From positions 1,178,001 through 1,242,000 of the forward strand of contig NZ_VFWZ01000002.1 in the NCBI RefSeq assembly GCF_006443095.1: 64,000 nt of DNA, given 5' to 3'. The DNA is from Aquimarina algicola (lineage in GTDB: Bacteria > Bacteroidota > Bacteroidia > Flavobacteriales > Flavobacteriaceae). Shown one piece after another: positions 17,823 to 35,700 of this stretch. Position numbers and translations under genes: made by a program. The notes under the pieces were generated by a model. That model had not been told where the DNA came from. It was given only the letters and a program-made list of their open reading frames with translations, and did not search any database. Each line of letters begins with the position of its first letter. The first letter of the stretch is position 1.

Positions 17823-20800
17823 ATGAGAAACTTTATAAAATCAGGAGCGATGTTACTTTTGCTTCTGGCGTGTGGTACCATAACTGCACAATTTAATTAT
17901 GGAGAAGCTCTCCAGAAGTCCCTTCTCTTTTACGAGACGCAACAATCTGGAGTTTTACCAGACTGGAATAGAATTAGTTGGCGATCCAATGCAGGGGTCA
18001 ATGATGGAAAAGATGTAGGTTTGGACTTAACAGGAGGATGGCATGATGCCGGAGACCATGTTAAGTTTGGATTTCCGATGGCATTTTCTGTTACTGCTCT
18101 CAATTGGGGGTACCTTGAGTATAAAGATGGGTACGACAGCGCAAACCAAACTGAGCACTTTAAGCAAAATATAAAATGGGTAACAGATTATTTTATAAAA
18201 TGTCATCCATCACCAAATGAATTTTATGCTCAAGTAGCAGATAGTAAATCACAAGATCATAACTTCTGGATGTCTCCAGAAATGGTAGACGTACATCCAC
18301 AATACGGGCAACGTAAATCATACAAGTTATCTCCTACTGCTCCCGGTACAGAAGTTGCTTGTGAGACTGCCGCTGCATTAGCTTCTGCAAGTATTATTTT
18401 CAAAGACAGTGATCCTGCCTACAGTGCTACTCTATTACGACATGCAAAAGAATTATATGCTTTTGGAGATACCTATAGAGGATTGTATAATGAGGATGGA
18501 AATATTCCTGCAACCGGTACATATTCTTCAGGAGGTTTTCAAGATGAATTAACCTGGGGTGCACTTTGGTTATATAAAGCTACAGGAGAACAAAAATACT
18601 TAGACAAAGCCGAAGCTGAATATTCACAACCCGACTTTTTATGGAGTCTAGTATGGGATGATAAGTCTTACGGAAACATGGTATTATTATCTATCATCAC
18701 CGGAAAAGATAATTATAAAGCTGACGCAGAACGCCATTTGGACTTCTGGCAAAGAGGAGGAGGAATCAATTACTCTCCAGGAGGACAAGCACATTTAACA
18801 CAATGGGGTTCTCTACGCCATGCTATGAATGCTTCACTTACAGCGCTGATATATAGTGATAACGTTGCTACACCCAAAAAACAACAATATCACGATTTTG
18901 CCGTAGCTCAAGTGAACTATGCATTAGGTGACAATCCAAATAACAGAAGTTTGGTAACAGGATTTGGTGTAAATCCACCAACAAAACCACATCATAGAGG
19001 GCAACATGCAAGCTGGGCAAGAAGTACTTCTGTTCCAGAAGAGTCTAGACATACACTTTGGGGTGCTTTAATGGGTGGCCCGGGAATGCCAAACGACGCT
19101 TTTGAAGAAGATAGAAACGACTTTCAGGCAAATGAAGTAGCCACAGATTACAACGCTTGTTATCAAGGTGTACTAGCAAGAATGGTAATGGAATTTGGAG
19201 GTAGCGAATTAAAAGATTTTCCTCAACCTGAAACACCAGGACTAGAATTTATAAATGAGGTAAGACTCAATAACGACCAATCTCGTTTTACAGAAGTAGC
19301 CATATGGTTAAATAACCGTTCTGCATGGCCGGCACGAGTACCTGGTACACTCAAAGCAAGATATTTTATTGATATTTCAGAAGGAGTAGCAGCTGGTTTT
19401 AGTGTAAGCGATTACTCAATAATTGCACGAGGTGCAGGAACAGCAGTAAGCGGATTACAAGCTTGGGATGCTTCTCAAAACATCTACTATGCAGAAGTTG
19501 AAGTAGATCAGGATCAAATGCCATTTCCCGGAGGTCAGGGAGAGTACAGAAGTGAAATTCAATTAAGAATCGCTTTACCAAACGATGCTCCAGAATCTGC
19601 ATGGGATGCTACAAACGATTTTTCGTATACAGGACTTAACAATAGCTTAAAAATAGTTGATAATGTTCCTATTTATGTAGATGGTGTACTTGCCGGAGGA
19701 AAAGAACCTAATGGTGGCGATACTCCTACAGCTTCATTTACAGCTTCTCCAGAAACAGGAATTGCTCCTTTAGAAGTATCTTTTAACGCTTCTGCGTCCT
19801 CTGATCCAAATGGAGATGCCTTAACCTATTCTTGGGATTTTAATAATGGTCAAACTTCTACTGCTGTTTCTCCAAAAATTACCTTTACACAAGTTGGTAC
19901 TTATGAAGTAACGTTAACAGTAAGCGATGGTAGTAACACCTCTTCTCCTGCAACCAAGACGATCACCGTTACAGATGGTAGCCCTATTGCTTCATTTACA
20001 GCAAGTGCAACCTCTGGTGTTGCTCCTTTTCAGGTTACTTTTGATGCTGCCGGATCTTCAGACCCTGCGGGAGGAAATCTAACCTATAGCTGGGATTTAG
20101 GAAATGGTGATACTGCAAATACTGCAACTGCAAGTACAACGTATACTCAAGTAGGTGTTTTTACAGTTACATTAACTGTAGAAAATGCTGCTGGGCAAAC
20201 AAATACTACTACAGAAACGATCACTATTACAGATGGCAGCAGCCCAAGTTGTGCATTCGATACTCCTCTGGCAACTGCACTACCAAATATAAATTCGCAA
20301 TTTGAGAATATTTATGTACTTGGAAACGGAGGACCAAATCTGGATAATGTAACCAATTTTACAATCAATTGGGACCTTGAAAACAATGGGTTATATCAAT
20401 TCTCCATGAATACCAACAATGGAGTACCAAGCTGGTGGAATGATCTATTGCCAAAAGTAACTCAAAACTTTAATGCCACGCAACCAGAAGTTACAATCAC
20501 CGGTTCTGGATTCGCAGGATTAGATGGTACATACTGGGCAACTGTTGACAATAATAACTTTGTGTTAGTATCAAAAACAGCAGATTTTACACTATATTTT
20601 AGTACATCTGCTACAGCACCGGATTGTGGTAGTTCAACTACAAACCCATCTGTAGTGAGCGGAGGGGCTATTACTGGTGGTCCATTTACATTTACAGTAG
20701 GAGATAATCTTAAAGATAATGTTTCTGGTGTTACATTAGCAGGAAACACAGGAGCAAAATCGCAATGGGTCGTTACCGATGATCAAAACACAATTCTAGG

Positions 20801-23800
20801 ATTACCAGCTTCACCAGAAGTTGTAGATTTTGATGGTGCAGGAACAGGAACTTGCTACATTTGGCATTTAAGTTACGAAGAAGGTCTTCAAGGCTTAGAA
20901 GTAAATAATAAAGTTACTGATCTTTCAGGAGATTTTGATTTCTCCAACTCTATCGCTATTGTTAGAAACCCCGTTGTAGTTAATAACCCTCCTAGCGCTT
21001 TATTAGATTGTACATTCGGAACTCCTTTAGCAACTACTTTACCAAGCATAAATACACAATTTGAAAATATTTATGTTTTAGGAAACGGAGGACCAAATCT
21101 GGATAATGTAACCAACTTTACAATCAACTGGGACCTTGCCAACAATGGGTTATACCAGTTTTCTATGAATACTAACAATGGAGTGCCAAGCTGGTGGAAT
21201 GATCTGTTACCAAAAGTAACTCAAAACTTTAATGCTGCGCAACCAGAAATCACAATTACTGGTTCTGGATTCACAGGACTAGATGGTACATATTGGGCAA
21301 CTATAGACAGTAATAATTTTGTATTAGTATCAAAAACAGAAGGGTTTACATTATATTTTAGCACTTCTTCTATCGCACCAGATTGTGGAGCAGGTAACGG
21401 TAATACTAACCCTGTCGCTAATATTGCTGCAACACCTACTTCTGGTGAAGCACCTCTTTTAGTTTCTTTTGACGCCTCAGGATCAACCGATGCTGACGGA
21501 GATACTCTATCATACAACTGGGACTTTGGAGATGGTACTTCTGCTACTGGGGTTACAGTACAAAATACTTATTCGTCTGTTGCTGATTATGAAGTAACAC
21601 TTACAGTTACTGATGGAAACGGAGGAGAAGATCAGGCAAAAATTACGATCAAAGTAAATGATGGTGATATCATTATTAATCCTCCAACAGGAGACAATGA
21701 ATATATAGATAGGTTTATAGAGATGAGAAATGAATTCTATGATCCCGCTAATGGATATTTCAGTGCAGATGGTTCACCACATCACTCTATTGAAACATTA
21801 ATAGTAGAAGCTCCTGATCATGGTCATGAATCTACCAGTGAGTTATACTCATACTGGTTATGGTTAGAAGTAATGAATGGTAGAATCACAAAAGACTGGG
21901 CTCCGCTTAATAATGTTTGGAATAAAATCGAAGAGTTTATTATTCCTACAAATGCAGATCAGCCTTCAAATGCAGCATATAATCCATCTTCTCCGGCCGC
22001 ATATGCAAGTGAGTTTCCATTACCAAGTGATTACCCTGCGCCTCTTAACTTTGGTGCTCCTGTAGGATCTGACCCGGTTTCACCCGATTTAACTGCTGCT
22101 TACGGACCAGATATTTATCAAATGCATTGGTTACTAGACAATGATAATTTCTACGGATATGGAAACCGAGGTGATGGTGTAAGTACTCCTTCTTATATCA
22201 ATACATTCCAAAGGGGAGAGCAAGAATCTGTTTTTGAAACAGTACCACACCCTTCTTGGGAGAGCTTTGATTGGGGTGGCCAAAATGGATACTTACCTCT
22301 TTTTGTAGAAGATCAAAATTATGCCAAACAATGGAGGTATACCAGTGCTCCTGATGCAGATGCAAGAGCAGTACAAGCAATGTACTGGGCACAGATTTAT
22401 GCCAAAGAACAGGGAGCTAGCTTAAGCAATCTTGATCTTGATAAAGCTGTTAAAATGGGAGATTTCTTAAGACTCTCTATGTTTGATAAATATTTCAAAC
22501 CTCTTGGCGTACAAAGTGCAACAAGTGGTGCAGGAACCGGTTATGATAGTGCTCATTATCTTATGTCATGGTATATGTCTTGGGGTGGTTCTGCTGACCC
22601 GGCATCTCAATGGGCATTTAGAATTAGCTCTAGCCACTGTCATTTTGGATATCAAAATCCTGTAGCAGCCTACGCACTTACGCAAGTAGACGAATTAAAG
22701 CCAAAATCTCAGAACGGAGAAAGAGACTGGACAGAAAGTCTGAAAAGACAAATGGAATTCTATACATGGTTACAATCTAAAGAAGGAGCTATTGCCGGTG
22801 GAGCCACAAATAGCTGGAATGGAGACTACAGCCCTTATCCTTCTGGCAAATCTACATTCTACGATATGGCATATGACAAAGATCCTGTATATCACGATCC
22901 AGGAAGTGGAACTTGGTTTGGATGGCAAGCATGGTCTATGGAAAGAGTAGCCGAGTATTATTACATTACAAATGATGCTATGGCCAAAAATCTAATGGAC
23001 AAATGGGCAGCATGGGTAAAAAGCCAGGTAGTACTTATAGGAAATAACGATTTTGATATTCCTGCTACCTTAGAGTGGTCTGGAGAACCTGATACATGGA
23101 ATCCTAATAATCCTGGAAGCAATAATAATCTAAGCGTTACGGTAACGGATTATAACAAAGACCTTGGGGTTGCTGCTTCTATGGCAAAAGCACTGATTTA
23201 TTATGCTGCTGCTACGCAAAAGTATGGCACTCTTGATACAGAAGCCAAAGACCTTGCAAAAGAAGTATTAGACAGAATGTGGGTTACTTATCGAGACGAC
23301 AAAGGAGTATCTTCTCCAGAAGAAAGAGGAGACTTCAAGAGAATTTTTGAGCAAGAAGTATATATCCCTCAAGGATTCAGTGGTACAATGCCAAATGGGG
23401 ATCAAATCAAACCCGGTGTAAGTTTCTTGGATATCAGATCAGATCTTAAAAATGATCCTGAATTTGATAGATTACAACAAGCGTATGACTCAGGTACAGA
23501 CTTTACTCAGAACTACCACAGAAGCTGGGCTCAAATTGAAGTTGCTCTGGCAAACGCAGAATTTGGATTCTTCTTTGGTGATGCTAATTCTGCAGGTACA
23601 GCTGCTGTACAAAGACAATTTGATGCAGTTGTAAGTCCTAACCCTGCCAAAAATTACGTAAATGTAATGAGCAAAAATATGGTAGGTAATGTTCAAATGA
23701 GATTGATCAGCTTATCAGGAAATGTAGTTGCAACAAAACTCTTAAAAGACAAGCAAGTACAAACTCGCCTCTCTTTACAAGGTGTTCCTGCCGGAATTTA

Positions 23801-23864
23801 TGTTCTGGAAATGGTAGATCTTACAACAAGAGAAGTTTCTAGAAGCAAAATAGTAGTTAAGTAG
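17823..23864 (+). CDS. Bifunctional GH9-GH48 cellulase, T9SS-exported
   Basis: A 2013-residue secreted enzyme joining an endo- and an exo-acting cellulase. The signal peptide ends at residue 22. Residues 23-460 are GH9, with catalytic-base motif GWHDAGD (D75, D78) and the acid E438 in NEVATDYNA. About 470-630 is a family 3 carbohydrate-binding module placed directly after GH9, as in processive endoglucanases. PKD domains occupy 631-718 and 719-806. A domain at 809-936 is repeated at 1061-1189, with a different module (about 946-1050) between them. A third PKD (1195-1280) leads to GH48 at about 1290-1922. There VEAPDHGHESTSE supplies E1329 and E1340, aligned by recollection with E44 and the acid E55 of Cel48F. 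A T9SS sorting domain (1936-2013, VVSPNP) ends the protein. The layout recalls CelA of Caldicellulosiruptor. Confidence 0.93.
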   Translation: MRNFIKSGAMLLLLLACGTITAQFNYGEALQKSLLFYETQQSGVLPDWNRISWRSNAGVNDGKDVGLDLTGGWHDAGDHVKFGFPMAFSVTALNWGYLEYKDGYDSANQTEHFKQNIKWVTDYFIKCHPSPNEFYAQVADSKSQDHNFWMSPEMVDVHPQYGQRKSYKLSPTAPGTEVACETAAALASASIIFKDSDPAYSATLLRHAKELYAFGDTYRGLYNEDGNIPATGTYSSGGFQDELTWGALWLYKATGEQKYLDKAEAEYSQPDFLWSLVWDDKSYGNMVLLSIITGKDNYKADAERHLDFWQRGGGINYSPGGQAHLTQWGSLRHAMNASLTALIYSDNVATPKKQQYHDFAVAQVNYALGDNPNNRSLVTGFGVNPPTKPHHRGQHASWARSTSVPEESRHTLWGALMGGPGMPNDAFEEDRNDFQANEVATDYNACYQGVLARMVMEFGGSELKDFPQPETPGLEFINEVRLNNDQSRFTEVAIWLNNRSAWPARVPGTLKARYFIDISEGVAAGFSVSDYSIIARGAGTAVSGLQAWDASQNIYYAEVEVDQDQMPFPGGQGEYRSEIQLRIALPNDAPESAWDATNDFSYTGLNNSLKIVDNVPIYVDGVLAGGKEPNGGDTPTASFTASPETGIAPLEVSFNASASSDPNGDALTYSWDFNNGQTSTAVSPKITFTQVGTYEVTLTVSDGSNTSSPATKTITVTDGSPIASFTASATSGVAPFQVTFDAAGSSDPAGGNLTYSWDLGNGDTANTATASTTYTQVGVFTVTLTVENAAGQTNTTTETITITDGSSPSCAFDTPLATALPNINSQFENIYVLGNGGPNLDNVTNFTINWDLENNGLYQFSMNTNNGVPSWWNDLLPKVTQNFNATQPEVTITGSGFAGLDGTYWATVDNNNFVLVSKTADFTLYFSTSATAPDCGSSTTNPSVVSGGAITGGPFTFTVGDNLKDNVSGVTLAGNTGAKSQWVVTDDQNTILGLPASPEVVDFDGAGTGTCYIWHLSYEEGLQGLEVNNKVTDLSGDFDFSNSIAIVRNPVVVNNPPSALLDCTFGTPLATTLPSINTQFENIYVLGNGGPNLDNVTNFTINWDLANNGLYQFSMNTNNGVPSWWNDLLPKVTQNFNAAQPEITITGSGFTGLDGTYWATIDSNNFVLVSKTEGFTLYFSTSSIAPDCGAGNGNTNPVANIAATPTSGEAPLLVSFDASGSTDADGDTLSYNWDFGDGTSATGVTVQNTYSSVADYEVTLTVTDGNGGEDQAKITIKVNDGDIIINPPTGDNEYIDRFIEMRNEFYDPANGYFSADGSPHHSIETLIVEAPDHGHESTSELYSYWLWLEVMNGRITKDWAPLNNVWNKIEEFIIPTNADQPSNAAYNPSSPAAYASEFPLPSDYPAPLNFGAPVGSDPVSPDLTAAYGPDIYQMHWLLDNDNFYGYGNRGDGVSTPSYINTFQRGEQESVFETVPHPSWESFDWGGQNGYLPLFVEDQNYAKQWRYTSAPDADARAVQAMYWAQIYAKEQGASLSNLDLDKAVKMGDFLRLSMFDKYFKPLGVQSATSGAGTGYDSAHYLMSWYMSWGGSADPASQWAFRISSSHCHFGYQNPVAAYALTQVDELKPKSQNGERDWTESLKRQMEFYTWLQSKEGAIAGGATNSWNGDYSPYPSGKSTFYDMAYDKDPVYHDPGSGTWFGWQAWSMERVAEYYYITNDAMAKNLMDKWAAWVKSQVVLIGNNDFDIPATLEWSGEPDTWNPNNPGSNNNLSVTVTDYNKDLGVAASMAKALIYYAAATQKYGTLDTEAKDLAKEVLDRMWVTYRDDKGVSSPEERGDFKRIFEQEVYIPQGFSGTMPNGDQIKPGVSFLDIRSDLKNDPEFDRLQQAYDSGTDFTQNYHRSWAQIEVALANAEFGFFFGDANSAGTAAVQRQFDAVVSPNPAKNYVNVMSKNMVGNVQMRLISLSGNVVATKLLKDKQVQTRLSLQGVPAGIYVLEMVDLTTREVSRSKIVVK

Positions 23865-23986: not shown

Positions 23987-26404
23987 ATGAAGAGATTGAT
24001 AAATTATATAATACTAGCATTACTGTTTAGTAATGCAATGACATTAATAGCACAACAACAAAACTTTTTAAGCACATCTGGTAACAAGCTATTTGACACA
24101 ACCGGAAAAGAAGTTAGGCTTACAGGTGTTAACTGGTTCGGTTTTGAAACGCAAACGTATTTTCCTCACGGCATCTGGACTCGTGATATGAAAAGTGTAT
24201 TGCAGCAAATTAAAGATCTGGGATTTAACACTATACGGGTACCATGGTGTAATGAAATGCTCAACCCCGGAGTAACCATAGAAGTTAATTCTTTTGGTAC
24301 GGATTCGTATACAGGTGTTTCTCCTATGAATGCAGAAGAATCTAAAGTAACAACACCTATAGAGTTGATGGATATTATGGTAAAATGGTGTCAGGAAAAC
24401 GATATTAAAATTGTTTTGGATAACCATTCGAGAGCCGCAGATGGCTTTTTAAATGAAGCTTTATGGTATACTGATGAATATTCCGAAGAAAGATGGATCA
24501 ATGACTGGATTTTTATGGCAGACCGATATAAAGAATACTCTGCCGTAGTGGGTATGGATCTCAACAATGAGCCACACGGATCAACATGGGGTGATAACGA
24601 CCCTGCTACAAACTGGAATAAAGCCGCAGAACGCTGTGGTAACGCTATTTTAAAAGTAAACCCAAACGTTTTAATTATTGTAGAAGGTGTTGGAGAGTTT
24701 GAAGGAAATTCATATTGGTGGGGAGGTCAGCTTATGGGAGCCAGACAATATCCTGTACAATTATCTGATCCTAGCAAACTAGTATATTCAGCACATGAGT
24801 ATGGTCCCGAAGTAGCTCCACAAGATTGGTTTGAAGCCGCAGATTTTCCCAGTAATATGCCCGGTATATGGCAAGAAAACTTTCATTACCTATATGAAGA
24901 CGAGACCTCTCCCATATTTGTAGGTGAATTTGGTATTAAAGATCAAGATGCCTTTGGAGGTATATCATTGACATGGATCACCGAATGGATGAAATTTATG
25001 GGAGATATTTACTCGTGGACTTTTTGGACAATGAACCCTAACTCCGGAGATACCGGAGGAATTCTAGCAGACGATTGGTCAACTGTAAACGAATGGAAAA
25101 TGGATCTATTACGTCCATATTTTGCACCGCGTATTCCCAATGTAATTGGGGGCAATTCAAATAATGCTCCAATAGCAAAAATAAGCGTTGATACTAGCTC
25201 AGGAAATGCGCCTCTTACAGTACAATTTGATGCTTCAGCTTCTTCTGATGCTGATGGGGATACATTAATATATTCATGGGATTTTGATGATACTACCACA
25301 GATACTGGCAGCCTTGTCTCACATACATTTACAACACCCGGAGAATATAATGTTGTCCTTACGGTAAATGATGGTACGGTTACAGATACAGAAACCATAA
25401 TTATAAATGTAAATGGCTCTGGTACCCCAACTGTTACCGCAGTGATCTCTTCTGATAATACTTCCGGTATAGCTCCTTTATTAGTTAATTTTGATGCTTC
25501 AACATCATCAAGCACAGACAATAGTGCATTAACGTATACCTGGGATTTTGGAGATGGTACTGCAGGAAGTGGTACTACAGTATCTCACTCATACGATAGT
25601 GTAGGAGGTTATATCGTTACCCTTACAGCAACATCACCTTCTGGAATAACAGATACAGAAACAATAACAATCACAGTTACAGAACAAACAAGTGCAGATC
25701 TGGTAGTAGAATATCTTGATGGAGGCTCTGGTAATAGTAATGATAGTGCAATCAATCCACATTTTAGAATTATAAATAATGGAAACCAAGAGTTCGCATA
25801 CAGTGACATTACAATAAGATACTGGTTTACTTCAGAAGAAAATAATATTTTGAATTTTTGGTGTGACTGGGCACAGCTAGGTACTGAATTCGTAAATGGG
25901 TCATTTGGTCAGGTTTCAGGAATAGACTTTGTAGAAGTCTCATTTGATAATACTGCAGGAGTTCTTAAAGGACTAAGTAATTCTGGGGCTATACAAACCC
26001 GTTTTGCCAAAACCAACTGGAGTGCCTTTGATGAGACCAATGACTATTCTTATGATGATACAAAAACATCATTTACAAGTCACGATAGAGTAACATTGTA
26101 CGTAAATGGTAGTCTTGTTTGGGGTATAGAACCAGCTAATACAGCTTTTGCAAATACTATGAAGAAAACTTCAATAGAAGCTTTTCCTAATCCCGTTACT
26201 ACTCAACTCAACCTGACGAGTAATGATAATTTGAAAGGAGCTGTAATTAATATTATAAATCTTTCAGGAAAAATAATGTCTTCTCAGCATATCAAAACCT
26301 CTGATACAAAAATTGCAATAGATATGGCAAAGCTTATTCCGGGAATTTATTTTGTAGAAATTATACAAAATGGTAACACCATTATAAAACAAATTGCCAA
26401 ATAA
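23987..26404 (+). CDS. GH5 cellulase with PKD domains and CBM3, T9SS-exported
   Basis: Secreted endo-beta-1,4-glucanase of 805 residues. A signal peptide ends at about residue 22 (LIA). Residues about 26-380 are a GH5 barrel with acid/base E195 in LNNEP and nucleophile E314 in VGEFG. The segment VLDNHSR is also typical of the family. Two PKD domains (about 395-477 and 482-565) lead to a family 3 cellulose-binding module at about 568-718 (RYWFTSEE, WCDWAQ). The T9SS sorting domain at about 727-805 begins EAFPNPV. It follows the GH9-GH48 gene after 122 nt and should supply new chain ends for the GH48 exo-enzyme. The cellulase call is firm for GH5 and CBM3; the substrate is inferred. Confidence 0.9.
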   Translation: MKRLINYIILALLFSNAMTLIAQQQNFLSTSGNKLFDTTGKEVRLTGVNWFGFETQTYFPHGIWTRDMKSVLQQIKDLGFNTIRVPWCNEMLNPGVTIEVNSFGTDSYTGVSPMNAEESKVTTPIELMDIMVKWCQENDIKIVLDNHSRAADGFLNEALWYTDEYSEERWINDWIFMADRYKEYSAVVGMDLNNEPHGSTWGDNDPATNWNKAAERCGNAILKVNPNVLIIVEGVGEFEGNSYWWGGQLMGARQYPVQLSDPSKLVYSAHEYGPEVAPQDWFEAADFPSNMPGIWQENFHYLYEDETSPIFVGEFGIKDQDAFGGISLTWITEWMKFMGDIYSWTFWTMNPNSGDTGGILADDWSTVNEWKMDLLRPYFAPRIPNVIGGNSNNAPIAKISVDTSSGNAPLTVQFDASASSDADGDTLIYSWDFDDTTTDTGSLVSHTFTTPGEYNVVLTVNDGTVTDTETIIINVNGSGTPTVTAVISSDNTSGIAPLLVNFDASTSSSTDNSALTYTWDFGDGTAGSGTTVSHSYDSVGGYIVTLTATSPSGITDTETITITVTEQTSADLVVEYLDGGSGNSNDSAINPHFRIINNGNQEFAYSDITIRYWFTSEENNILNFWCDWAQLGTEFVNGSFGQVSGIDFVEVSFDNTAGVLKGLSNSGAIQTRFAKTNWSAFDETNDYSYDDTKTSFTSHDRVTLYVNGSLVWGIEPANTAFANTMKKTSIEAFPNPVTTQLNLTSNDNLKGAVINIINLSGKIMSSQHIKTSDTKIAIDMAKLIPGIYFVEIIQNGNTIIKQIAK

Positions 26405-26422: not shown

Positions 26423-26459
26423 CACTTTCTCTGGTATATATTATCAGAGAAAGTGTTTT
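26423..26459 (+). terminator. Hairpin with short T run after the GH5 cellulase gene
   Basis: The perfect 11-bp stem CACTTTCTCTG/CAGAGAAAGTG (26423-26433 and 26445-26455) is followed by TTTTAT. It could be a partial terminator that lowers expression of the next gene, only 38 nt further on, or an mRNA-stabilising element. Confidence 0.65.
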
Positions 26460-26496: not shown

Positions 26497-29400
26497 ATGA
26501 AAAACAATCTTAAAACCTTACTTGTAGTATGTTATGCAATACTTACCACAAGTTATCTAAGTGCTCAAACAACGGTACCTCCCGGTTTTGTCTATACCGA
26601 TGGTGACAAATTCATGCTAGACGAAAGGCCTTTTTATTTTTCGGGAGCTAATGTCTATGATTTTTTTACCTACGGTTCTTCTAGTGGAGATATAGAAACT
26701 CAATTTATGGATAAAGACCGTATAGACGCTCATATGCGAACATTATATGTAAGTGGTGTTCGAGTAGTGAGGTTATGGGGGTTTAGTCATGAGGATTGGC
26801 ACGGTTTTGAACCACAAAAAGGAGTATATAGTGAAGCCCAGTTCTCATTATTCGACTATGTGGTAAAATCTGCTGAAGCCAATGGTATTAAACTCATTGT
26901 AGCATTAGAAAACTATTGGAATGATTATGGCGGTATCAAAGACCGGTTGAAATGGGAAGGTATAGAAGTAGAAGGAGCCGGAACTCATGATCAGGGTCAG
27001 TTTTTTACCAATGCCTCTGCTATACAAGGATATAAAGATTATGTAAAATACTTTATCACTCGCAAAAATCATTATGATGGTGTAGAATACAGAAATGACC
27101 CTACTATTCTCGCTTGGGAACTCATGAACGAACCTAGATATCAAGGATTTGGAGATGACCTCTCTTCAAATACATTACGAGCATGGGTAGACGATATGGG
27201 AGAATTTATAAAATCTATAGATTCTAACCATCTTTTAGGAACAGGCCTTGAAGCTCATGGAGCCAAGTATGGATTTGGAGGAGACGAAGGAAATGATTTT
27301 ATAAAAATACACGAATCCCCCTATATTGATTTTACCTCTGCACATCCATATATAAGAGAAAGTTGGTCAAACTTTACACTAGAGCAAACTATGGAACTTA
27401 TGGCAACCTGGGCAAATGAGTCTCATAATATCATCAAAAAACCCTTATATGTAGGAGAATTTAATGTCGAAATCCAAGAAAGATACGAGTGGTGGGAAGA
27501 AATCTATGGGTATATCGAAAAAGAAAAAATCGGAGCAAGTGCCTTTTGGTGGTTTCCAGATAGTGAAACACCAAGAGATAAATTTGCTGTATTCGAGGGT
27601 GATGTAGAAGTAGGTATCTACAAAGAACACGCTCATAGAATGGAAGCCATGTCTGGTGGAGAAGCTATTTACCTTTCTTTATTATCACCAAAATCAGGAG
27701 ATAAATTCGTATCGGGAAGCAGCGTTCATGTCGAGGCAAACCTAACGAATGAAAACAACACAGTAGTCAAAGTAGAATTTTATAGCAATGGCGAACTGGT
27801 AGGAGAAGATACTACTGCTCCTTATGAATTTGATCTTACAGGATTATCAGATGGTCAATATAAAATCACATCTGTGGCAACAGCTATAGATGGAAAAACA
27901 AAAGAATCTACTCCTAGAAATATTCAAATAGGAGGCGATGGTATTTTATCATTAGAATATAAGGATGCTTCTGCAAATGTAGTAAGCAATATTATCAAAC
28001 CTCATTTCAGAATATTTAATAACTCTTCACAAGATGTAGCATATTCAGACCTCAGTATCAGATATTGGTTTGAAACCGAAGAAGATCTTGCACTAAGCTT
28101 TTTTACAGACTATGCCATGATAGGGAGTAGTAACGTAAATGGTAAAATTGTTAACGTAGAAGGAAACTCTTACTATATGGAAGTTACTTTTGATTCTGCT
28201 GCCGGAACACTGGGTAGTAGTGATGGATCAGGAAGAATAGAAACCAAAATTGCAAATAGTGCTTGGTCTGATACAGATCAGTCCAACGATTACTCATATG
28301 ATGGAACCAAAAAAGAATTTGCTGCATGGGATCGAGTAGCATTATACCTTAATGGAAATCTTATTAGTGGTACAGAACCTAATGGCGCAGAAACCCCAAA
28401 AGCTGTTATAACAACAAATATCATATCAGGAGACGCACCTTTACTAGTATCTTTTGATGCTTCAGGATCAACAGATCCAAATGGAGATATTCTGACATAT
28501 AGTTGGGATTTTGGTAGTGGTAACACTGCATTAGGTGTAACTGCAGATTATGAATTTACAACAATAGGAGATCAAACAGTAAAACTCACTGTTGATGACG
28601 GTAACGGAAACTCTAGCAGCACATCAATTATCATCACAGTGACTGACCCCAATCAACCTCCGGTAGCAGATTTTATAGCCGATAAAATTACAGGTACAGC
28701 TCCGCTACAAGTAAACTTTGACGCATCTGGTTCTTCAGACCCAAAAGGTAATACACTTACATATAGTTGGGATTTTGGTGATGCCACTACAGGTACGGGA
28801 GAAACAACAACACATACCTTTGATACTATCGGTGAATATATTGTGATCCTTACTGTAGATAACGGACAAGGAGGTACAGCTACAAAAACCCTTACAATCG
28901 AAGTAGTAGATCAATTACCTGCTTCTGATATTGTCTTGACTTACAAAGATGGAGGTAATGGCAGTGCAACAGACAATACAATCAATCCACACATACAACT
29001 TGTCAATAATGGAGATAACCCTGTTGATTACAAGGATATTACCATACGATACTGGTTTACTTCAGAAGACAGTAATGATCTTAATTTCTGGTGTGATTGG
29101 GCACAAGTAGGAACTGATAATGTATCTGGAACTTTTGGACAAAGTGCAGGTAATAACTATCTAGACATCACATTCAACCAAAGTGCAGGTATTCTTGCTT
29201 CTAAAACAAATTCAGGGCCTATACAAGCACGCTTTGCAAAAACAAACTGGAGTAATTTTAATGAAGCTGATGATTACTCATATGATGATACCAAAACCGA
29301 CTATACAAATCACGATAAAATCGCCGTATATCTCAATAGTACACTAGTATGGGGAGTTGAACCTAGTACTTCTGGTATATCTCCAATTCAAATAAAAGCA

Positions 29401-29622
29401 TTTCCTAATCCCGTGTTTGATGAATTAACAGTAAACACAACTACAAGTTTCAAAAATGCAAACATCAAAATCATTGATTTGGCAGGAAACATATTTTACG
29501 AAGAAATCATCCAGAAAAATACTGATATAAAAAACCTGGATTTCAGTCAATTAAGATCCGGAATATATTTTATTCAGATTGAGCAAGGTGGCAAAACCAC
29601 TGTAAAGCAAATCGTAAAATAA
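26497..29622 (+). CDS. GH5 beta-mannanase-like enzyme with two CBM3 modules, T9SS-exported
   Basis: Secreted 1041-residue hydrolase. A signal peptide ends at YLSAQ. Residues about 25-388 are a GH5 barrel of the mannanase type (subfamily 7 by resemblance), with VRLWGF, acid/base E212 in LMNEPR and nucleophile E321 in VGEFN. An Ig-like domain (about 391-480) is followed by a divergent CBM3 (482-630), two PKD domains (633-718 and 720-806), a second CBM3 (810-958) and a T9SS sorting domain (965-1041, KAFPNPV). Cellulose-binding modules on a mannanase fit attack on mannan coating cellulose fibres. The second CBM3 and sorting domain are nearly the same as in the next gene. Subfamily and substrate are inferred. 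Confidence 0.88.
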   Translation: MKNNLKTLLVVCYAILTTSYLSAQTTVPPGFVYTDGDKFMLDERPFYFSGANVYDFFTYGSSSGDIETQFMDKDRIDAHMRTLYVSGVRVVRLWGFSHEDWHGFEPQKGVYSEAQFSLFDYVVKSAEANGIKLIVALENYWNDYGGIKDRLKWEGIEVEGAGTHDQGQFFTNASAIQGYKDYVKYFITRKNHYDGVEYRNDPTILAWELMNEPRYQGFGDDLSSNTLRAWVDDMGEFIKSIDSNHLLGTGLEAHGAKYGFGGDEGNDFIKIHESPYIDFTSAHPYIRESWSNFTLEQTMELMATWANESHNIIKKPLYVGEFNVEIQERYEWWEEIYGYIEKEKIGASAFWWFPDSETPRDKFAVFEGDVEVGIYKEHAHRMEAMSGGEAIYLSLLSPKSGDKFVSGSSVHVEANLTNENNTVVKVEFYSNGELVGEDTTAPYEFDLTGLSDGQYKITSVATAIDGKTKESTPRNIQIGGDGILSLEYKDASANVVSNIIKPHFRIFNNSSQDVAYSDLSIRYWFETEEDLALSFFTDYAMIGSSNVNGKIVNVEGNSYYMEVTFDSAAGTLGSSDGSGRIETKIANSAWSDTDQSNDYSYDGTKKEFAAWDRVALYLNGNLISGTEPNGAETPKAVITTNIISGDAPLLVSFDASGSTDPNGDILTYSWDFGSGNTALGVTADYEFTTIGDQTVKLTVDDGNGNSSSTSIIITVTDPNQPPVADFIADKITGTAPLQVNFDASGSSDPKGNTLTYSWDFGDATTGTGETTTHTFDTIGEYIVILTVDNGQGGTATKTLTIEVVDQLPASDIVLTYKDGGNGSATDNTINPHIQLVNNGDNPVDYKDITIRYWFTSEDSNDLNFWCDWAQVGTDNVSGTFGQSAGNNYLDITFNQSAGILASKTNSGPIQARFAKTNWSNFNEADDYSYDDTKTDYTNHDKIAVYLNSTLVWGVEPSTSGISPIQIKAFPNPVFDELTVNTTTSFKNANIKIIDLAGNIFYEEIIQKNTDIKNLDFSQLRSGIYFIQIEQGGKTTVKQIVK

Positions 29623-29630
29623 GAAACAAT

Positions 29631-29672
29631 AATCATTGCTTGTAGAGTACATAAAACCTACAAGCAATGATT
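29631..29672 (+). other. Intergenic 15-bp RNA hairpin ahead of the next GH5 gene
   Basis: AATCATTGCTTGTAG (29631-29645) pairs perfectly with CTACAAGCAATGATT (29658-29672) around a 12-nt loop. No T run follows. It lies 8 nt after one stop codon and 17 nt before the chosen ATG of the next gene, and it covers the alternative TTG start at 29636. Confidence 0.75.
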
Positions 29673-29689
29673 ATAAAAAATTTAAAGAG

Positions 29690-32431
29690 ATGATGAAAGC
29701 TACAAAAGAATCAATACTCAAGACACTGTCAATTCTATTATTTATGATGTTAGGATTAACAGGTTATAATTCTTTTTCTCAAAATACTATACGTGTAGAA
29801 GAAGGAAAAATCTATACATCATGCAATGAAGAAGTTGTAATGCGTGGTGTTAATGAAATGTTTGTCTGGTCTCAAGATAGAACAGGGACTACTATATTAC
29901 CAGAAATTGCAAAAACAGGGTCTAATGCTGTAAGGCTAGTGTGGACTACTCAAGGAGACGAAACTGAGCTTGACCAACTTATCAATAATAGTATCAAAAA
30001 CAAAATGATACCGGTTGCAGAATTGCACGATGCTACAGGAGATTTTAGCAAATTACAAATGCTTCTCGATTATTGGACAAGACCCGCAGTTTTATCTACC
30101 ATTCAAAAATACAAGAAATGGTTGATCGTAAATATTGGTAATGAAGTAGGAAACGGATCAGAATCTACAGCACAATGGGTTGCTTATTATAAAGATGCAA
30201 TTACACAGTTACGAAATGCAGGAATCGACACTCCGTTAATGATAGATTGTGGAGGATATGGTAATAGAGAAAGCTATTTTCTTGAAGGAGGAAACGAATT
30301 ATTAGAATTCGACCCATTGCACAATATCATATTTGCTGTACATACCTATTGGACAAACGGAGATGATCAAGCAAAAATCGATCGTTTGAATACAATGATC
30401 GAGGACGCAAAACTCAAAAAATTACCCTATATCATAGGAGAAGGCCCACAAGAAGCTGCCTCTCCTATTGCCTGTGGGCAGCCTTTTCCGTATCAAGAAA
30501 TGATCAAAAGGTTACAAGAAGAAAAAATTGGCTGGCTATCCTGGTCTTGGGGAGCAGTAGATAATAGTGATTGTGGTGCCCCAAATAGTGTTTTTGATAT
30601 TACTTCTAATGGTAACTATGGAAGTTGGGCATCTACCTTTGCAGAAGAAATCTGCGTTACAGATATCAATTCGATTAAAAACACCTCTATCATTCCCCAA
30701 TCTATGATAGATCCTACAATTACATCTTGTGGAACGACTTACACTATTAGTGCTTCAGCTAATCCGGGAGGAACCATATCTCCCTCTGGAAACATCATCG
30801 TTTCAGAAAACGATAATCAAATATTTGATATTACAGCCAATATCGGTTTCAAAATTGAAGATGTTCTTGTTGATGGAAGCTCTATAGGTGATGTAAATAC
30901 ATATACGTTTTCTAATGTTACTCAAAACCATACCATCGAAGTTATATACGCTACTGTTCCACTACCTCCACAAGAGCCATATGTAAATGGAGTTCCACAG
31001 GTAATCCCTGGAAAAATAAAAGCCACAAGCTTTGATTTGGGAGGAGAAACTGTAGCCTATCACGATATTTCTTTAGGAAATGATGGCAATGGTATAAGAC
31101 AAGATGAAGATGTAGATACCGAAACTAATGGAGATGGTGGTAACATTGGATATACCGCAAAAGGAGAATGGATAGAATATACCGTTAATGTTGCACAAGC
31201 CGGAATATACAATATCGAAGTTCTAGTAGCCTCAGAAAATTCTAATGGTCAATTTCATATAGAGTTTGATGGTACAGATGTAACGGGTATTCAAAACGTA
31301 GCTGCAACAAGTAGTTGGGCAAGTTTTGTTCCTCAAAAAATTTCTAATGTTACTCTAACTAAAGGAGAACAAGTTATGAGATTTTTTATCGATAATGGAG
31401 CTTTCAACTTTTCTACCATGACCTTTTCCGATGATGGAACTATAGAAAATAACTTTCCTTTAGCTGATTTTATAACAGATAAAGTTACAGGTCTGGCACC
31501 ACTCGAAGTTAGTTTTGATGCCTCCAATTCTTCAGATCCAAAAGGAAACCCTCTAACTTATAATTGGGATTTTGGTGATGGAAATATAGCCAACGGACAA
31601 AAAGTAACACATACTTTTGATACCATAGGTGAATATACAGTAACACTTACCGTAGATAACGGACAAGGCGGAACTGATACAAAAACAATTACAATCAAAG
31701 TAGTAGATCAACTACCTACTTCTGATATTATACTCACTTACAAAGATGGGGGTAACGGCAGTGCGACAGACAATACGATCAATCCACATATACAACTCAT
31801 TAATAATGGAGACAACCCTATTGATTACAAGGATATTATCATACGATACTGGTTTACTTCAGAAGATAGTAATGATCTTAATTTCTGGTGTGATTGGGCG
31901 CAATTAGGAACCAATGACGTTTTAGGAGTCTTTGGTCAAAATGCTGGTATGAACTATCTTGACATTTCGTTTACAGCAAATGCCGGTTTACTACCTGCCA
32001 AAACAAATTCTGGACCCATACAAGTACGTTTTGCCAAAGCAAACTGGAGTAATTTTGATGAAACTGATGATTACTCCTATGACAATACCAAAACAGCGTA
32101 TACCAACCACGATAAAATCGCTGTTTATGTAAATGGTAACCTTGTATGGGGTGTTGAACCAAGTACTACTCTTTCTAACATATCTAACCCAATTCAAATA
32201 AAAGCTTTTCCTAATCCTGTGTTTGATAAACTAACGTTAAATACAACCACAAACTTTAAAAATGCAAATATCAAAGTCATTGATCTATACGGAAACTTAC
32301 TTTATGAAGAAACGATACAGAAAAATACCAATATAAAAAATATGGATTTCAGTCAATTAAAGTCAGGCATATATTTTATTCAGGTAAAACAAGATGATGA
32401 TAACATAATTGTAAAACAAATCATAAAATAA
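29690..32431 (+). CDS. GH5_8-like mannanase with CBM6-like and CBM3 modules, T9SS-exported
   Basis: Secreted enzyme of 914 residues from the chosen ATG; a second ATG lies 3 nt on. An upstream in-frame TTG is rejected because it sits inside a hairpin and would bury the signal peptide (LSILLFMMLGLTG). Residues about 35-320 form a GH5 barrel resembling subfamily 8 mannanases: VMRGVNEMFVW, AELHDATGDF, acid/base E152 in NIGNE and probable nucleophile E251 in IIGEGPQ, where GEF is more usual. An InlB-like repeat (about 349-425), a CBM6-type module (430-583), a PKD domain (589-676), a CBM3 (677-825) and a T9SS sorting domain (834-914) follow. Confidence 0.87.
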   Translation: MMKATKESILKTLSILLFMMLGLTGYNSFSQNTIRVEEGKIYTSCNEEVVMRGVNEMFVWSQDRTGTTILPEIAKTGSNAVRLVWTTQGDETELDQLINNSIKNKMIPVAELHDATGDFSKLQMLLDYWTRPAVLSTIQKYKKWLIVNIGNEVGNGSESTAQWVAYYKDAITQLRNAGIDTPLMIDCGGYGNRESYFLEGGNELLEFDPLHNIIFAVHTYWTNGDDQAKIDRLNTMIEDAKLKKLPYIIGEGPQEAASPIACGQPFPYQEMIKRLQEEKIGWLSWSWGAVDNSDCGAPNSVFDITSNGNYGSWASTFAEEICVTDINSIKNTSIIPQSMIDPTITSCGTTYTISASANPGGTISPSGNIIVSENDNQIFDITANIGFKIEDVLVDGSSIGDVNTYTFSNVTQNHTIEVIYATVPLPPQEPYVNGVPQVIPGKIKATSFDLGGETVAYHDISLGNDGNGIRQDEDVDTETNGDGGNIGYTAKGEWIEYTVNVAQAGIYNIEVLVASENSNGQFHIEFDGTDVTGIQNVAATSSWASFVPQKISNVTLTKGEQVMRFFIDNGAFNFSTMTFSDDGTIENNFPLADFITDKVTGLAPLEVSFDASNSSDPKGNPLTYNWDFGDGNIANGQKVTHTFDTIGEYTVTLTVDNGQGGTDTKTITIKVVDQLPTSDIILTYKDGGNGSATDNTINPHIQLINNGDNPIDYKDIIIRYWFTSEDSNDLNFWCDWAQLGTNDVLGVFGQNAGMNYLDISFTANAGLLPAKTNSGPIQVRFAKANWSNFDETDDYSYDNTKTAYTNHDKIAVYVNGNLVWGVEPSTTLSNISNPIQIKAFPNPVFDKLTLNTTTNFKNANIKVIDLYGNLLYEETIQKNTNIKNMDFSQLKSGIYFIQVKQDDDNIIVKQIIK

Positions 32432-32701: not shown

Positions 32702-35700
32702 ATGAAGCTTACGAAAGTCAATTTTCTAATTGCGTTCTTCCTTCTAGGGCTAGTGTCAAAAGCCCAGACCCCCCAGGGAGAATTAAAACGATGGCACAAG
32801 GTCACTTTAACATTTAACGGACCTAATACCACAGAAACCTCAAGTCCAAACCCTTTTACAGATTACAGACTGGATGTTACATTTACACATTCTGGTAGCA
32901 ACAAGAGCTATACCGTACCCGGATACTATGCTGCTTGTGGTAATGCTGCCAACAATAGCTGTAATTCTGGTAATAAGTGGAGAGTACATTTTACTCCTGA
33001 TAGAACAGGAACTTGGAACTGGTCTGCCTCTTTCAAAAAAGGAACTAATGTAGCTGCCAATGGTGGTGGTTCTGGTGCAGGTTTTATGGATGGTACAAAT
33101 GGAAATTTCTCCATTTCAGAATCTGATAAATCAGGAAGAGACTTCAGAAACAAAAACCTAGGACGTTTACAGTATGTTGGAGAACATTACTTAAAACACT
33201 CTGGTACTAACCCTGACAATCCAAATGGTCCTTGGTTTTTTAAGGCTGGAGCAGATTCTCCTGAAAACGCGTTTAATTATGTAGATTTTGATGCTACGCC
33301 AAGTTTTAATAATAATCTTAATAAGATTGGTAACAAAACATGGGGTCCTCATCAACAAGACTACAATGCAAATGATGCAGGAGCTTATACCTGGAACAAT
33401 GGTAACAAAGGAACCGAAATATTAGGGATGCTTAATTATCTTGCCGGGCAGGGAGCCAATGTAGTATCTTTTTTAACTTGGAACACTGATGGAGACGGTG
33501 GTGCTGTTTTTCCTCATGTCCTTAAAGTATCAGAGCAAGAATATGGTAATACACCAAGAGGGCAACAATGGAACAAAGTGCACAAAGACCGTTTTGATGT
33601 ATCTAAGTTAGACCAATGGGAAAAGGTGATGGAATATGCCGATAAAAAAGGGATATATCTTCACTTTAAAACCATGGAGACTGAAAATGACAACAAAATG
33701 GACGGTAATAATTTTGGAAGAGAACGTAAATTATATTACCGCGAAATCATTGCAAGATTTAGTCACCACCTGGCTCTAAATTGGAACCTTACCGAAGAAA
33801 CGACATTAAAAGACGATGTGGTAAGAGCTACAGCAAAGTATATCAAGGATAATGATCCTTATGATCACAACATTGTAATCCATACCTACCCTGGCGAAAA
33901 AGATCAGCGATATACACCACTACTTGGTAACAAATCCTTATTAACAGGAGCTTCTCTTCAATCCAATCAAAACAGCATTCATAATGATGTAAAAACATGG
34001 TTAGAAAGATCGAGAAATTCTGGAAGAAAGTGGGTAGTAGCCAATGACGAGCAAGGAAGCGCTTCTCAAGGAGTTCGAGTATCTGATAAGCAAGTTAGAC
34101 ACAGAGTATTGTGGGCAACACTTCTTGCCGGTGGTGCCGGTGTAGAATACTATAGCGGTTATACCAACGACGATGGAGACATCAATGGTAATGATCATAG
34201 AAAAAGAGGAAACAAATATAGAGAAGGTGGTTATGCGATCAACTTCTTTAATAAATATCTAGAGCCACAAGTAACAAAAATGGTAAGCTCAGATGGTGTT
34301 ACCTCTGACAATAATGACTATGTATTTGCTCAGGCAGGAAAAATATATGCTGTATACAGACCTAATGGTGGATCTACTGGATTAAACCTACCTGCTGGAA
34401 ATGGCAAATATGATGTGCAATGGTATAACCCTCGTACAGGAGGTAATTTAACTGCTAAACAAACTTTAGGTGGTAGTCTTGTTGCTCCCGATAATAATGA
34501 CTGGGTAGCATTAATCACTAGCAAAGATGGTAACGGTGGTGGTTGTGATAACACCAAAGTAGCAACTGCTTCTCAAGATGCATATCTGCAAGGAACAACC
34601 AAATTTAACAATGCAGATCTAAGAGTAGAAAGCGGTAAAAGAGTTTCTTATCTCAAATTTACAGCGCCTTCAACTACTGAAAAAGTAACTAGTGTAACAC
34701 TAGAACTTACTGTATCTACTGATGATGGAAGTGGACTTATTGAAATCTTTAAAGGAAATTCTAATAACTGGACAGAAGCAAACCTTTCTAATAGCAACAA
34801 ACCGGGAGAAGGTGCTAAAATAGGTGCGCTTAATACCACATATAGTAAAGGACAATCTTACCAATGGAATTTATCAAATATTGCTCCGGGAGAAACTGTT
34901 TCACTAATTGTAAAACAAACAGGTGGTAATGATGTATCTTTCTCTTCTAAAGAAGGAACTAATGCCCCAAAACTTATATTTGAGTTAGAATGTAATGATG
35001 GTGGAAACGATGGGCAAGGTAATTGTGATGGTGTTGCATTACAAGCAATTACAGATTTTCCTGCATTAACTACAGCTGGTTTTTCACCTGCCTATAAAGA
35101 TAATGCGAGAAATGCTTTGGCTATAGATGCTTCAAAATACAAAGATCAATTTGCTGCAGTAGAAAAAACATTCAGCGGTAATACAGGTACATACGATATA
35201 AAGTTAACAACGCTTACAGAAATCGATGGAGAATCTACTTATAGAATTTCTGTAGATGGAGTGAATGTTGGAGAATATACAAACCCTACTACTACAACTG
35301 ATTATACTGAATCAGGAACTGTATTTGAAGGTGTTGATATAAAAAAAGGAGCCAAAATCAGAATAGAGTTTAACTCACATACAAATGGTAAGATTCCTGA
35401 AGGAAATAGTACAGCATATTCTCGTGGTAGATGGACTGCTCTAGATTTTATTTGCCAAAGTAATGATGGTGATAATGGAGGTAACAACGGCGGTAATTGT
35501 ACTGCAGATTTTGAAGAAAAAAATGGACTTGTTGTTATGGAATCTGAAAACCTGAATGTATCAGGAACACAATGGAACATCAAAACTGCTAAGTCTGGAT
35601 TTACAGGAAATGGATACTTATCATGGGATGGTAATGACGCTTTTGGAACACCTGGTAATGGAACTATTACTGTTAAAGTAAAAATCAACTCACCAGGTAA

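Follow-up and report, generated by a model that had tools for sequence, protein, structure and literature searches.

CelA (CbCel9A/Cel48A) of Caldicellulosiruptor bescii combines catalytic domains of glycoside hydrolase (GH) families 9 and 48 in the order GH9-CBM3c-CBM3b-CBM3b-GH48 (CBM, carbohydrate-binding module). According to the available sections of PMC3865294, processive GH9 endoglucanases carry CBM3c, family GH48 includes cellobiohydrolases, and constructs of the GH9/CBM3c and GH48 parts of CelA showed measured synergy on crystalline cellulose. Another relevant enzyme is CelAly of Aquimarina (GH5-PL31 with B1, B2 and UKD), whose UKD domain was named CBM113 and reported to bind both cellulose and alginate in the accessible part of PMC13235733. 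Here, we analyzed a 64,000-nucleotide stretch of the Aquimarina algicola genome (contig NZ_VFWZ01000002.1, positions 1,178,001 to 1,242,000; the whole stretch is called the window below), which contains a gene for a GH9-GH48 protein with a C-terminal sorting domain of the type IX secretion system (T9SS). The analysis identifies this protein as a real, widespread and CelA-like predicted T9SS cellulase that evolved independently and whose heads are exchangeable. Very probably, it is a secreted, cellulose-directed bifunctional enzyme that works like CelA and arose separately inside marine Bacteroidota.

The protein shares with CelA an N-terminal GH9-CBM3c, a C-terminal GH48, binding modules between them and a single secreted chain. 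Its two halves each have an origin separate from CelA's; unlike CelA, it also has three PKD domains, two CBM113 modules and one module of a further type (X) where CelA has CBM3b, a T9SS tail, and a flavobacterial host whose marine and aerobic life is suggested by its genus. The preliminary description of this gene had proposed that PKD and unknown modules replaced the CBM3 linkers of CelA; this holds for the two CBM3b modules, in whose place PKD, CBM113 and X are found, and fails for CBM3c, which is kept. With CelAly the protein has in common the genus, CBM113 and a multimodular bifunctional layout; unlike CelAly, it carries GH9 and GH48 without a lyase domain, and two of the three alginate residues of its CBM113 modules are changed. 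The best solved match to its GH9-CBM3c half (residues 23-628) is Thermobifida fusca Cel9A (E4), an enzyme that presumably has neither GH48 nor a T9SS tail. Also comparable are loci of a Fulvivirga metagenome-assembled genome (MAG; L078), Geofilum (L079) and Saccharicrinis (L083), in which GH9 and GH48 lie within 8 kb and GH48 is 65-67% identical to that of the window, whereas the two domains are on separate proteins. The chain of Saccharicrinis aurantiacus (L083:5715-10907) holds two tandem GH48 domains together with CBM64 and a T9SS tail, and a GH9-CBM3c gene adjoins it.

Domain architecture and active-site residues

The gene is one open reading frame (ORF) of 2,013 codons without a stop (17823-23864, + strand, like all features of the window given below), and its coordinates and domains agree with the preliminary description. 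The 2013-aa product is arranged as GH9-CBM3c-PKD-PKD-CBM113-X-CBM113-PKD-GH48-T9SS tail. A putative signal peptide (residues 1-22, 17823-17888; cleavage near the border of TA and QFNYG) was judged by eye from the sequence. The GH9 catalytic domain (residues 26-451, 17898-19175) was recognized by Pfam at 479.5 bits, and the sole CBM3 of the protein follows it directly (37.8 bits over residues 483-559). The CBM3c module occupies residues 471-628 (19233-19706) and is attached to GH9 as in T. fusca Cel9A, the nearest solved structure for this half (1js4, aligned over residues 23-628). The GH48 catalytic domain (residues 1294-1918, 21702-23576) scored 970.5 bits with PF02011 (cut-off 25) over model positions 1-619 of 619. 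These Pfam scores rule out chance matches for both catalytic domains, confirming that GH9 with CBM3 is located at the N-terminus and GH48 near the C-terminus, inside the GH48 family.

The GH9 domain shows 58.8% identity with T. fusca Cel9A and 52.0% with 4dod, and the GH48 domain is 61.4% identical to 4fus (the top solved match), 60.8% to 4l0g and 58.5% to 8zu1 (CelS). We take 4l0g to be the GH48 part of CelA and 4dod its GH9 part, an assignment not confirmed by the Caldicellulosiruptor papers checked, from which these PDB codes are absent; 4fus, labelled in the database only as 'RTX toxins and related Ca2+-binding protein', is presumably from Hahella chejuensis. At the positions equivalent to D55, D58 and E424 of T. 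fusca Cel9A, which we assume to be its catalytic residues, the window protein has D, D and E, and with CBM3c following this domain its N-terminal half conforms to the Cel9A type. In the GH48 domain, the EAPD...TSE motif (EAPDHGHESTSE at residues 1329-1340) keeps both glutamates, E1329 and E1340, which we regard as catalytic and as part of the acid/base motif.

Between the two catalytic halves, Pfam detected three PKD domains, two of them adjoining CBM3c (residues 631-806, 19713-20240) and the third preceding GH48 (residues 1191-1280, 21393-21662). Two copies of the CelAly UKD domain (PDB 9kvn; 149 and 144 bits) occupy residues 809-936 (20247-20630) and 1063-1188 (21009-21386). They flank the single X module (residues 937-1062, 20631-21008; about 114 aa), for which Pfam gave no match in the window protein. 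Its AlphaFold2 model is beta-rich (mean pLDDT 86.8), and no Foldseek hit reached E <= 0.001, the best one (0.11) being to the fibronectin-like modules of CbhA; its fold is therefore left unnamed. When the window was taken together with the 63 related loci described below, repeats of X type, about 110 aa in length, were counted 94 times in 40 ORFs.

Export-related features

The C-terminal T9SS type A sorting domain (residues 1938-2011, 23634-23855), one of the claims of the preliminary description, was recovered by both Pfam (Por_Secre_tail, 34.4 bits, cut-off 27) and NCBIfam (24.1 bits, cut-off 23). A single-sequence search found a similar tail in 38 of 44 fused proteins, window included. The genome itself encodes SprA, the part of the T9SS translocon that was tested, in one frame of 2415 aa with SprA_N matches of 408 and 192 bits.

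Distribution of GH48 and of the fusion

GH48 is rare in the phylum Bacteroidota at large: 3 of 395 sampled phylum genomes (own included) exceeded the cut-off and one more gave a weak partial match, and GH48 was present in 4/299 sampled genomes of the family (own and one further Aquimarina included). Within the genus, 33 of 66 Aquimarina genomes have GH48. The corresponding figures are 8/194 for the order of Fulvivirga marina, 14/291 for the class of Clostridium puniceum, 18/148 for the class of Cellulomonas persica and 1/96 for the phylum of a Verrucomicrobia MAG, the single positive being this MAG. The majority of the Aquimarina GH48 frames (29 of 33) are 1,874-2,355 aa long; the other four comprise a 974-aa frame at a contig edge (G004), two separate 990-aa frames (G017 and G034) and one of 1,737 aa (G048).

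A scan of named genomes with the window GH48, a method that finds close relatives, yielded 63 loci; as some genomes are in both collections, this number is not independent of the count made within the genus. Fused GH9-GH48 was found in 43 of these loci, every one from Bacteroidota (Aquimarina, Tenacibaculum, Flammeovirga, Flavivirga, Reichenbachiella, and further Flavobacteriaceae and Cyclobacteriaceae), which indicates that the fusion in the window is not an assembly artefact. The preliminary description had known of no established case in this phylum, a statement overturned by these counts. The spacer modules differ in number between fused relatives, with 0-6 copies of the X module per protein among the 44 fused proteins. 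Another locus encodes GH5-GH48, eight have a separate GH9-CBM3c gene within 8 kb (one Clostridium and one unclassified MAG among them), ten show no GH9 in the examined 8 kb (some on short contigs; the Verrucomicrobia MAG included), and one is cut by a contig edge. When 19 of these genomes were searched genome-wide, GH9-CBM3c was found in 18, the exception being the Verrucomicrobia MAG; L065, L074, L075 and L080 hence carry it elsewhere in the genome. Moreover, among 61 Aquimarina genomes searched, GH9-CBM3c was present in 31/31 with GH48 versus 4/30 without, a co-occurrence that fits a working pair. In the genome of A. algicola, there is a single GH48 and a single GH9-CBM3c match at E <= 1e-60.

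Two further observations were made during this survey. A contig labelled Cyclobacteriaceae (L048) carries a fused gene whose GH48 is 88% identical to that of the window, reflecting either transfer or a mislabelled assembly. In two genomes of the class of Clostridium puniceum (L224 and L225), the domains are reversed within a single frame of 1,572 or 1,363 aa, respectively, giving GH48-GH9-CBM3c and resembling the engineered CelYZ fusion named in the available sections of PMC3865294.

With regard to published work, the accessible part of PMC5831590 describes a genome without GH6 or GH48 and says that this agrees with other Bacteroidetes genomes, and according to that of PMC10113389, three Fulvivirga genomes have a single GH48 each, which is filed under chitin. 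Searches of an open-access library turned up no account of a Bacteroidota protein that joins GH9 to GH48, as far as the text available there extends, subscription papers and CAZy lying outside this scope; the available sections of PMC10469889, PMC4928363, PMC6004670, PMC6247017, PMC13070388 and PMC10535946 describe none.

Origin relative to CelA

Before the trees were built, Aquimarina rows that were redundant and rows that were long or odd were removed. In the careful GH48 tree, which has 61 rows, Bacteroidota and the Verrucomicrobia MAG form a 46-row clade (support 100/96), the GH48 of CelA falls among Clostridia (95/91), and 4fus is on a long branch adjoining the Bacteroidota clade but outside it (93/85). 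The deepest Bacteroidota rows (Fulvivirga, Geofilum, Saccharicrinis and Pseudarcicella) have no GH9 fusion, and the fused proteins are in a nested 37-row clade (100/99). The approximately unbiased (AU) test rejected trees in which CelA was forced onto this fused clade (p 1.2e-5) and gave p 0.0056 when CelA was forced together with all Bacteroidota and the Verrucomicrobia MAG. A still lower value obtained with fused rows only (p 3e-57) is not used as support, as that group is already broken up by the omission of the unfused rows nested in it. For GH9, the tree places the heads from Bacteroidota together with actinobacterial Cel9A in a 60-row clade (100/99) with CelA outside, and forcing CelA onto GH9 type A, the head type of the window protein, was likewise rejected (p 1.5e-4); the tree does not fix how the heads from Bacteroidota branch near the base of this clade.

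Both halves are thus placed away from CelA, and the GH9-GH48 fusion is therefore independent. The sequence comparisons indicate that the window protein would work like CelA and is not a member of the CelA group by descent. Among the two origins considered in the preliminary description, transfer of an already fused CelA gene is rejected by the AU tests on GH48 and on GH9, and independent fusion is favored by the trees. Since the deeper Bacteroidota GH48 rows are unfused, we infer that GH9 and GH48 genes lying next to each other were its starting point and that heads were exchanged later. Such neighbours (a separate GH9-CBM3c gene within 8 kb) are present in 7/63 loci when Clostridium is not counted and the unclassified MAG is, and likewise in three further genomes (L215, L218 and L219). 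Within the 37-row clade, either the fused or the separate state may have come first. The Verrucomicrobia MAG itself has a GH48 inside the Bacteroidota clade within an unusual 2,350-aa frame, GH5-CBM6-GH48-Big_2 repeats-CBM2-GH124 (L081:5268-12317).

Probable exchange of heads, and split forms

The GH9 heads of the fused proteins are of two types, A (as in the window) and B, and their distribution disagrees in part with that of the GH48 tails. L056 and L060, both from Tenacibaculum, are 90% identical in GH48 and 55% in GH9, and L038 (Aquimarina) and L060 are 94% identical in GH9 and 81% in GH48. Identity rises abruptly at the CBM3c/PKD border: in the seven pairs whose heads differ, it is 40-44% for CBM3c and 67-88% for the next PKD. 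In addition, L046 has a separate GH9-A gene and a fused GH9-B-GH48, and in L050 the separate gene is of type GH9-B, with a frame starting at the locus edge, and the fused one is GH9-A-GH48. When these two loci were compared over GH9-CBM3c in 50-residue steps, the A copies proved 84-94% identical and the B copies 80-98%, and the swap is apparently reciprocal between the two genomes. A third kind of head occurs in an Aquimarina protein encoded in one frame, GH5(E1-type)-X-X-CBM113-X-X-GH48-T9SS (L093:4959-10169), with GH9-B in a neighbour gene.

Split forms also exist: in G017, G034 and G692, GH9...CBM113-T9SS is followed by CBM113...GH48-T9SS. On the Bacteroidota rows of a quick GH48 tree, the fused and separate states require at least five changes, with L093 taken as separate and L181 and L182 left out; the latter are labelled separate in the GH48 trees only because their loci were cut, and L213 and L214 show both fused. 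Two Aquimarina genomes (G040 and G062; loci L216 and L217) encode GH9-CBM3c-PKD-CBM113-X-CBM113 without GH48 (1,374 and 1,378 aa), which resembles the front of the fused protein. Another (G028) encodes GH9-CBM3-GH5-GH5-PKD-CBM113-T9SS in one 1,982-aa frame (L221:5138-11083).

Taken together, we consider it rather likely that the GH48-T9SS end of these marine Bacteroidota proteins serves as a stable tail, and that the heads on it (type A or type B of GH9, or an E1-type GH5) have repeatedly been swapped by recombination in the PKD/CBM113/X repeats. This would include reciprocal exchange between tandem genes as well as transfer of heads between genera, and selection would act on covalent endo-exo pairing itself and not on one fusion. 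Judged from the alignments and the tree, head type is partly inherited along the GH48 tree and often changed.

Cellulose- and alginate-binding positions of CBM113

For CBM113, the available text of PMC13235733 reports R36, K100 and K110 as alginate residues and calls their involvement only possible. Both copies in the window protein have T36, Y50, W63, W64, V or I at position 100, and K110, so that one of the three reported alginate residues (K110) is kept; at the cellulose-site positions Y50, W63 and W64, CelAly has Y, Y and Y. The GH9-GH48 proteins of the window and the 63 loci contain 80 CBM113 copies in total; all 80 have Y, W or F at each of the three cellulose positions, and R36, K100 and K110 are found in 22, 3 and 65 copies, respectively. 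R36 is kept in none of 52 copies outside GH9-GH48 proteins of the same loci; its loss is thus not special to the window protein, and the residue may be of limited use as a general mark. For the window copies we predict cellulose binding, with alginate binding weak or none, and in view of these residues we regard dual binding as in CelAly as less likely. Outside the window, other contigs of the same genome encode two further proteins with this module, LPMO_10 (AA10)-PKD-CBM113-T9SS (L230:1204-2829, - strand) and GH5-CBM113-T9SS (L229:439-2148).

Neighbouring genes and sequence context

Four genes for carbohydrate-active enzymes (CAZymes) with T9SS tails follow the fused gene. They encode an endocellulase E1-like GH5 with two PKD domains and CBM3 (23987-26404; E1 match of 342 bits), a mannanase-like GH5 with Big_7, two PKD domains and two CBM3 (26497-29622), another mannanase-like GH5 with CBM6, PKD and CBM3 (29636-32431), and a protein with DUF5060, two CBM96 and CBM6 (32702-37258). 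A relative of the E1-like GH5 (>300 bits) is present in 35/63 related loci. A promoter/terminator scan of the region gave counts as in shuffled sequences (61 vs 59.3 and 9 vs 9.1, respectively). One 14-pair hairpin with a T run lies between the E1-like and the first mannanase-like gene (26423-26455), and such sites are no commoner than in shuffles. The G+C content is 35-40% over 18-36 kb versus 28-34% over the 8 kb upstream, which is not taken as a sign of transfer.

Proposed function and alternative explanations

By analogy with CelA, the likely role of the protein is that of an exported endo/exo cellulase for crystalline cellulose. The N-terminal GH9-CBM3c would cut cellulose as a processive endoglucanase, and the C-terminal GH48 would run along the freed chains as a cellobiohydrolase. 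The PKD and X modules may serve as spacers, and the two CBM113 modules would anchor the enzyme on the insoluble cellulose surface in place of CBM3b. By means of its signal peptide and C-terminal tail, the protein would pass first through Sec and next through the type IX system, and so reach the cell surface or the medium. We infer activities, processivity, synergy and surface location in this way; the domains, conserved active-site residues, SprA gene, trees and neighbourhood are observed. Several points weigh against this proposal. It is sequence-based for activity, secretion and expression; the signal peptide rests on inspection by eye, and the NCBIfam score of the tail is barely over its cut-off. 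The GH48 part of CelA was only weakly active (available sections of PMC3865294), and synergy in the window protein cannot be assumed from that system. In addition, because two of the GH5 neighbours are mannanase-like, the natural wall may be mannan-rich, with cellulose not the sole target.

An alternative history is a single ancestral fusion inherited vertically, with GH9 discordance being tree error and separate genes being recent splitting. The fused state is the commonest in the 37-row clade, the fused and separate states need only five changes, and some separate rows are among fused ones. Such a history is nonetheless unlikely given head mismatches far beyond tree error, as seen in the Tenacibaculum and Aquimarina pairs, the abrupt change of identity between CBM3c and PKD, and the GH5-GH48 protein of L093. 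Some inheritance along the GH48 tree is nevertheless present, as the A/B labels of 31 rows need at least six changes on the quick GH48 tree versus a shuffled mean of 8.7 (9/300 shuffles as low or lower). The preliminary description had named many close Bacteroidota homologues with a long vertical history as evidence against its reading; the homologues are indeed many (43/63 loci fused), whereas the history is not of that kind, in view of the swapped heads and of rows labelled as other families that are placed among Flavobacteriaceae in the GH48 tree. Acquisition of a ready-made CelA-type gene from Caldicellulosiruptor or one of its relatives, followed by the addition of a T9SS tail and a change of linkers, would explain the same catalytic-domain order, the shared CBM3c and a GH48 identity to 4l0g level with that to 4fus. 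It is extremely improbable given the AU rejections for both halves, the unfused Bacteroidota GH48 that branch deeper than the fused ones, and the grouping of the GH9 half with actinobacterial Cel9A instead of CelA.

Other alternatives concern the substrate. The main target could be the wall of brown algae, in which cellulose is embedded in alginate, and CBM113 could bind either polymer, since the window copies are clear homologues of a module defined in CelAly of the same genus, and R36 and K110 recur in many copies, the alginate role of these residues being only possible. We regard this as doubtful because R36 is changed to T and K100 to V or I in the window protein (K110 being kept), K100 is nearly absent from copies whose cellulose positions are always aromatic, and three of the four CAZyme neighbours are GH5 (E1-like or mannanase-like), although no search for alginate lyases was made in the genome. 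A GH48 half acting as a chitinase or on xylan would be in line with the chitinase activity reported for some GH48 (PMC3865294, available sections) and with the filing of the Fulvivirga GH48 under chitin (PMC10113389, accessible part). It appears very unlikely in light of the 58-61% identity to three solved GH48 structures with the EAPD...TSE motif kept, the cellulose-type CBM3 and CBM113 in the protein, and the E1-like GH5 next door.

A cellulose-directed enzyme of separate origin thus is the reading that we prefer. Half of the genomes sampled from one marine genus have GH48, as do several other genera. The proteins also offer predicted T9SS-exported cellulases from salt-water bacteria. The natural fused, split, head-swapped and GH5-headed versions, which have closely similar GH48, offer a direct test of whether and why endo-exo linkage pays.

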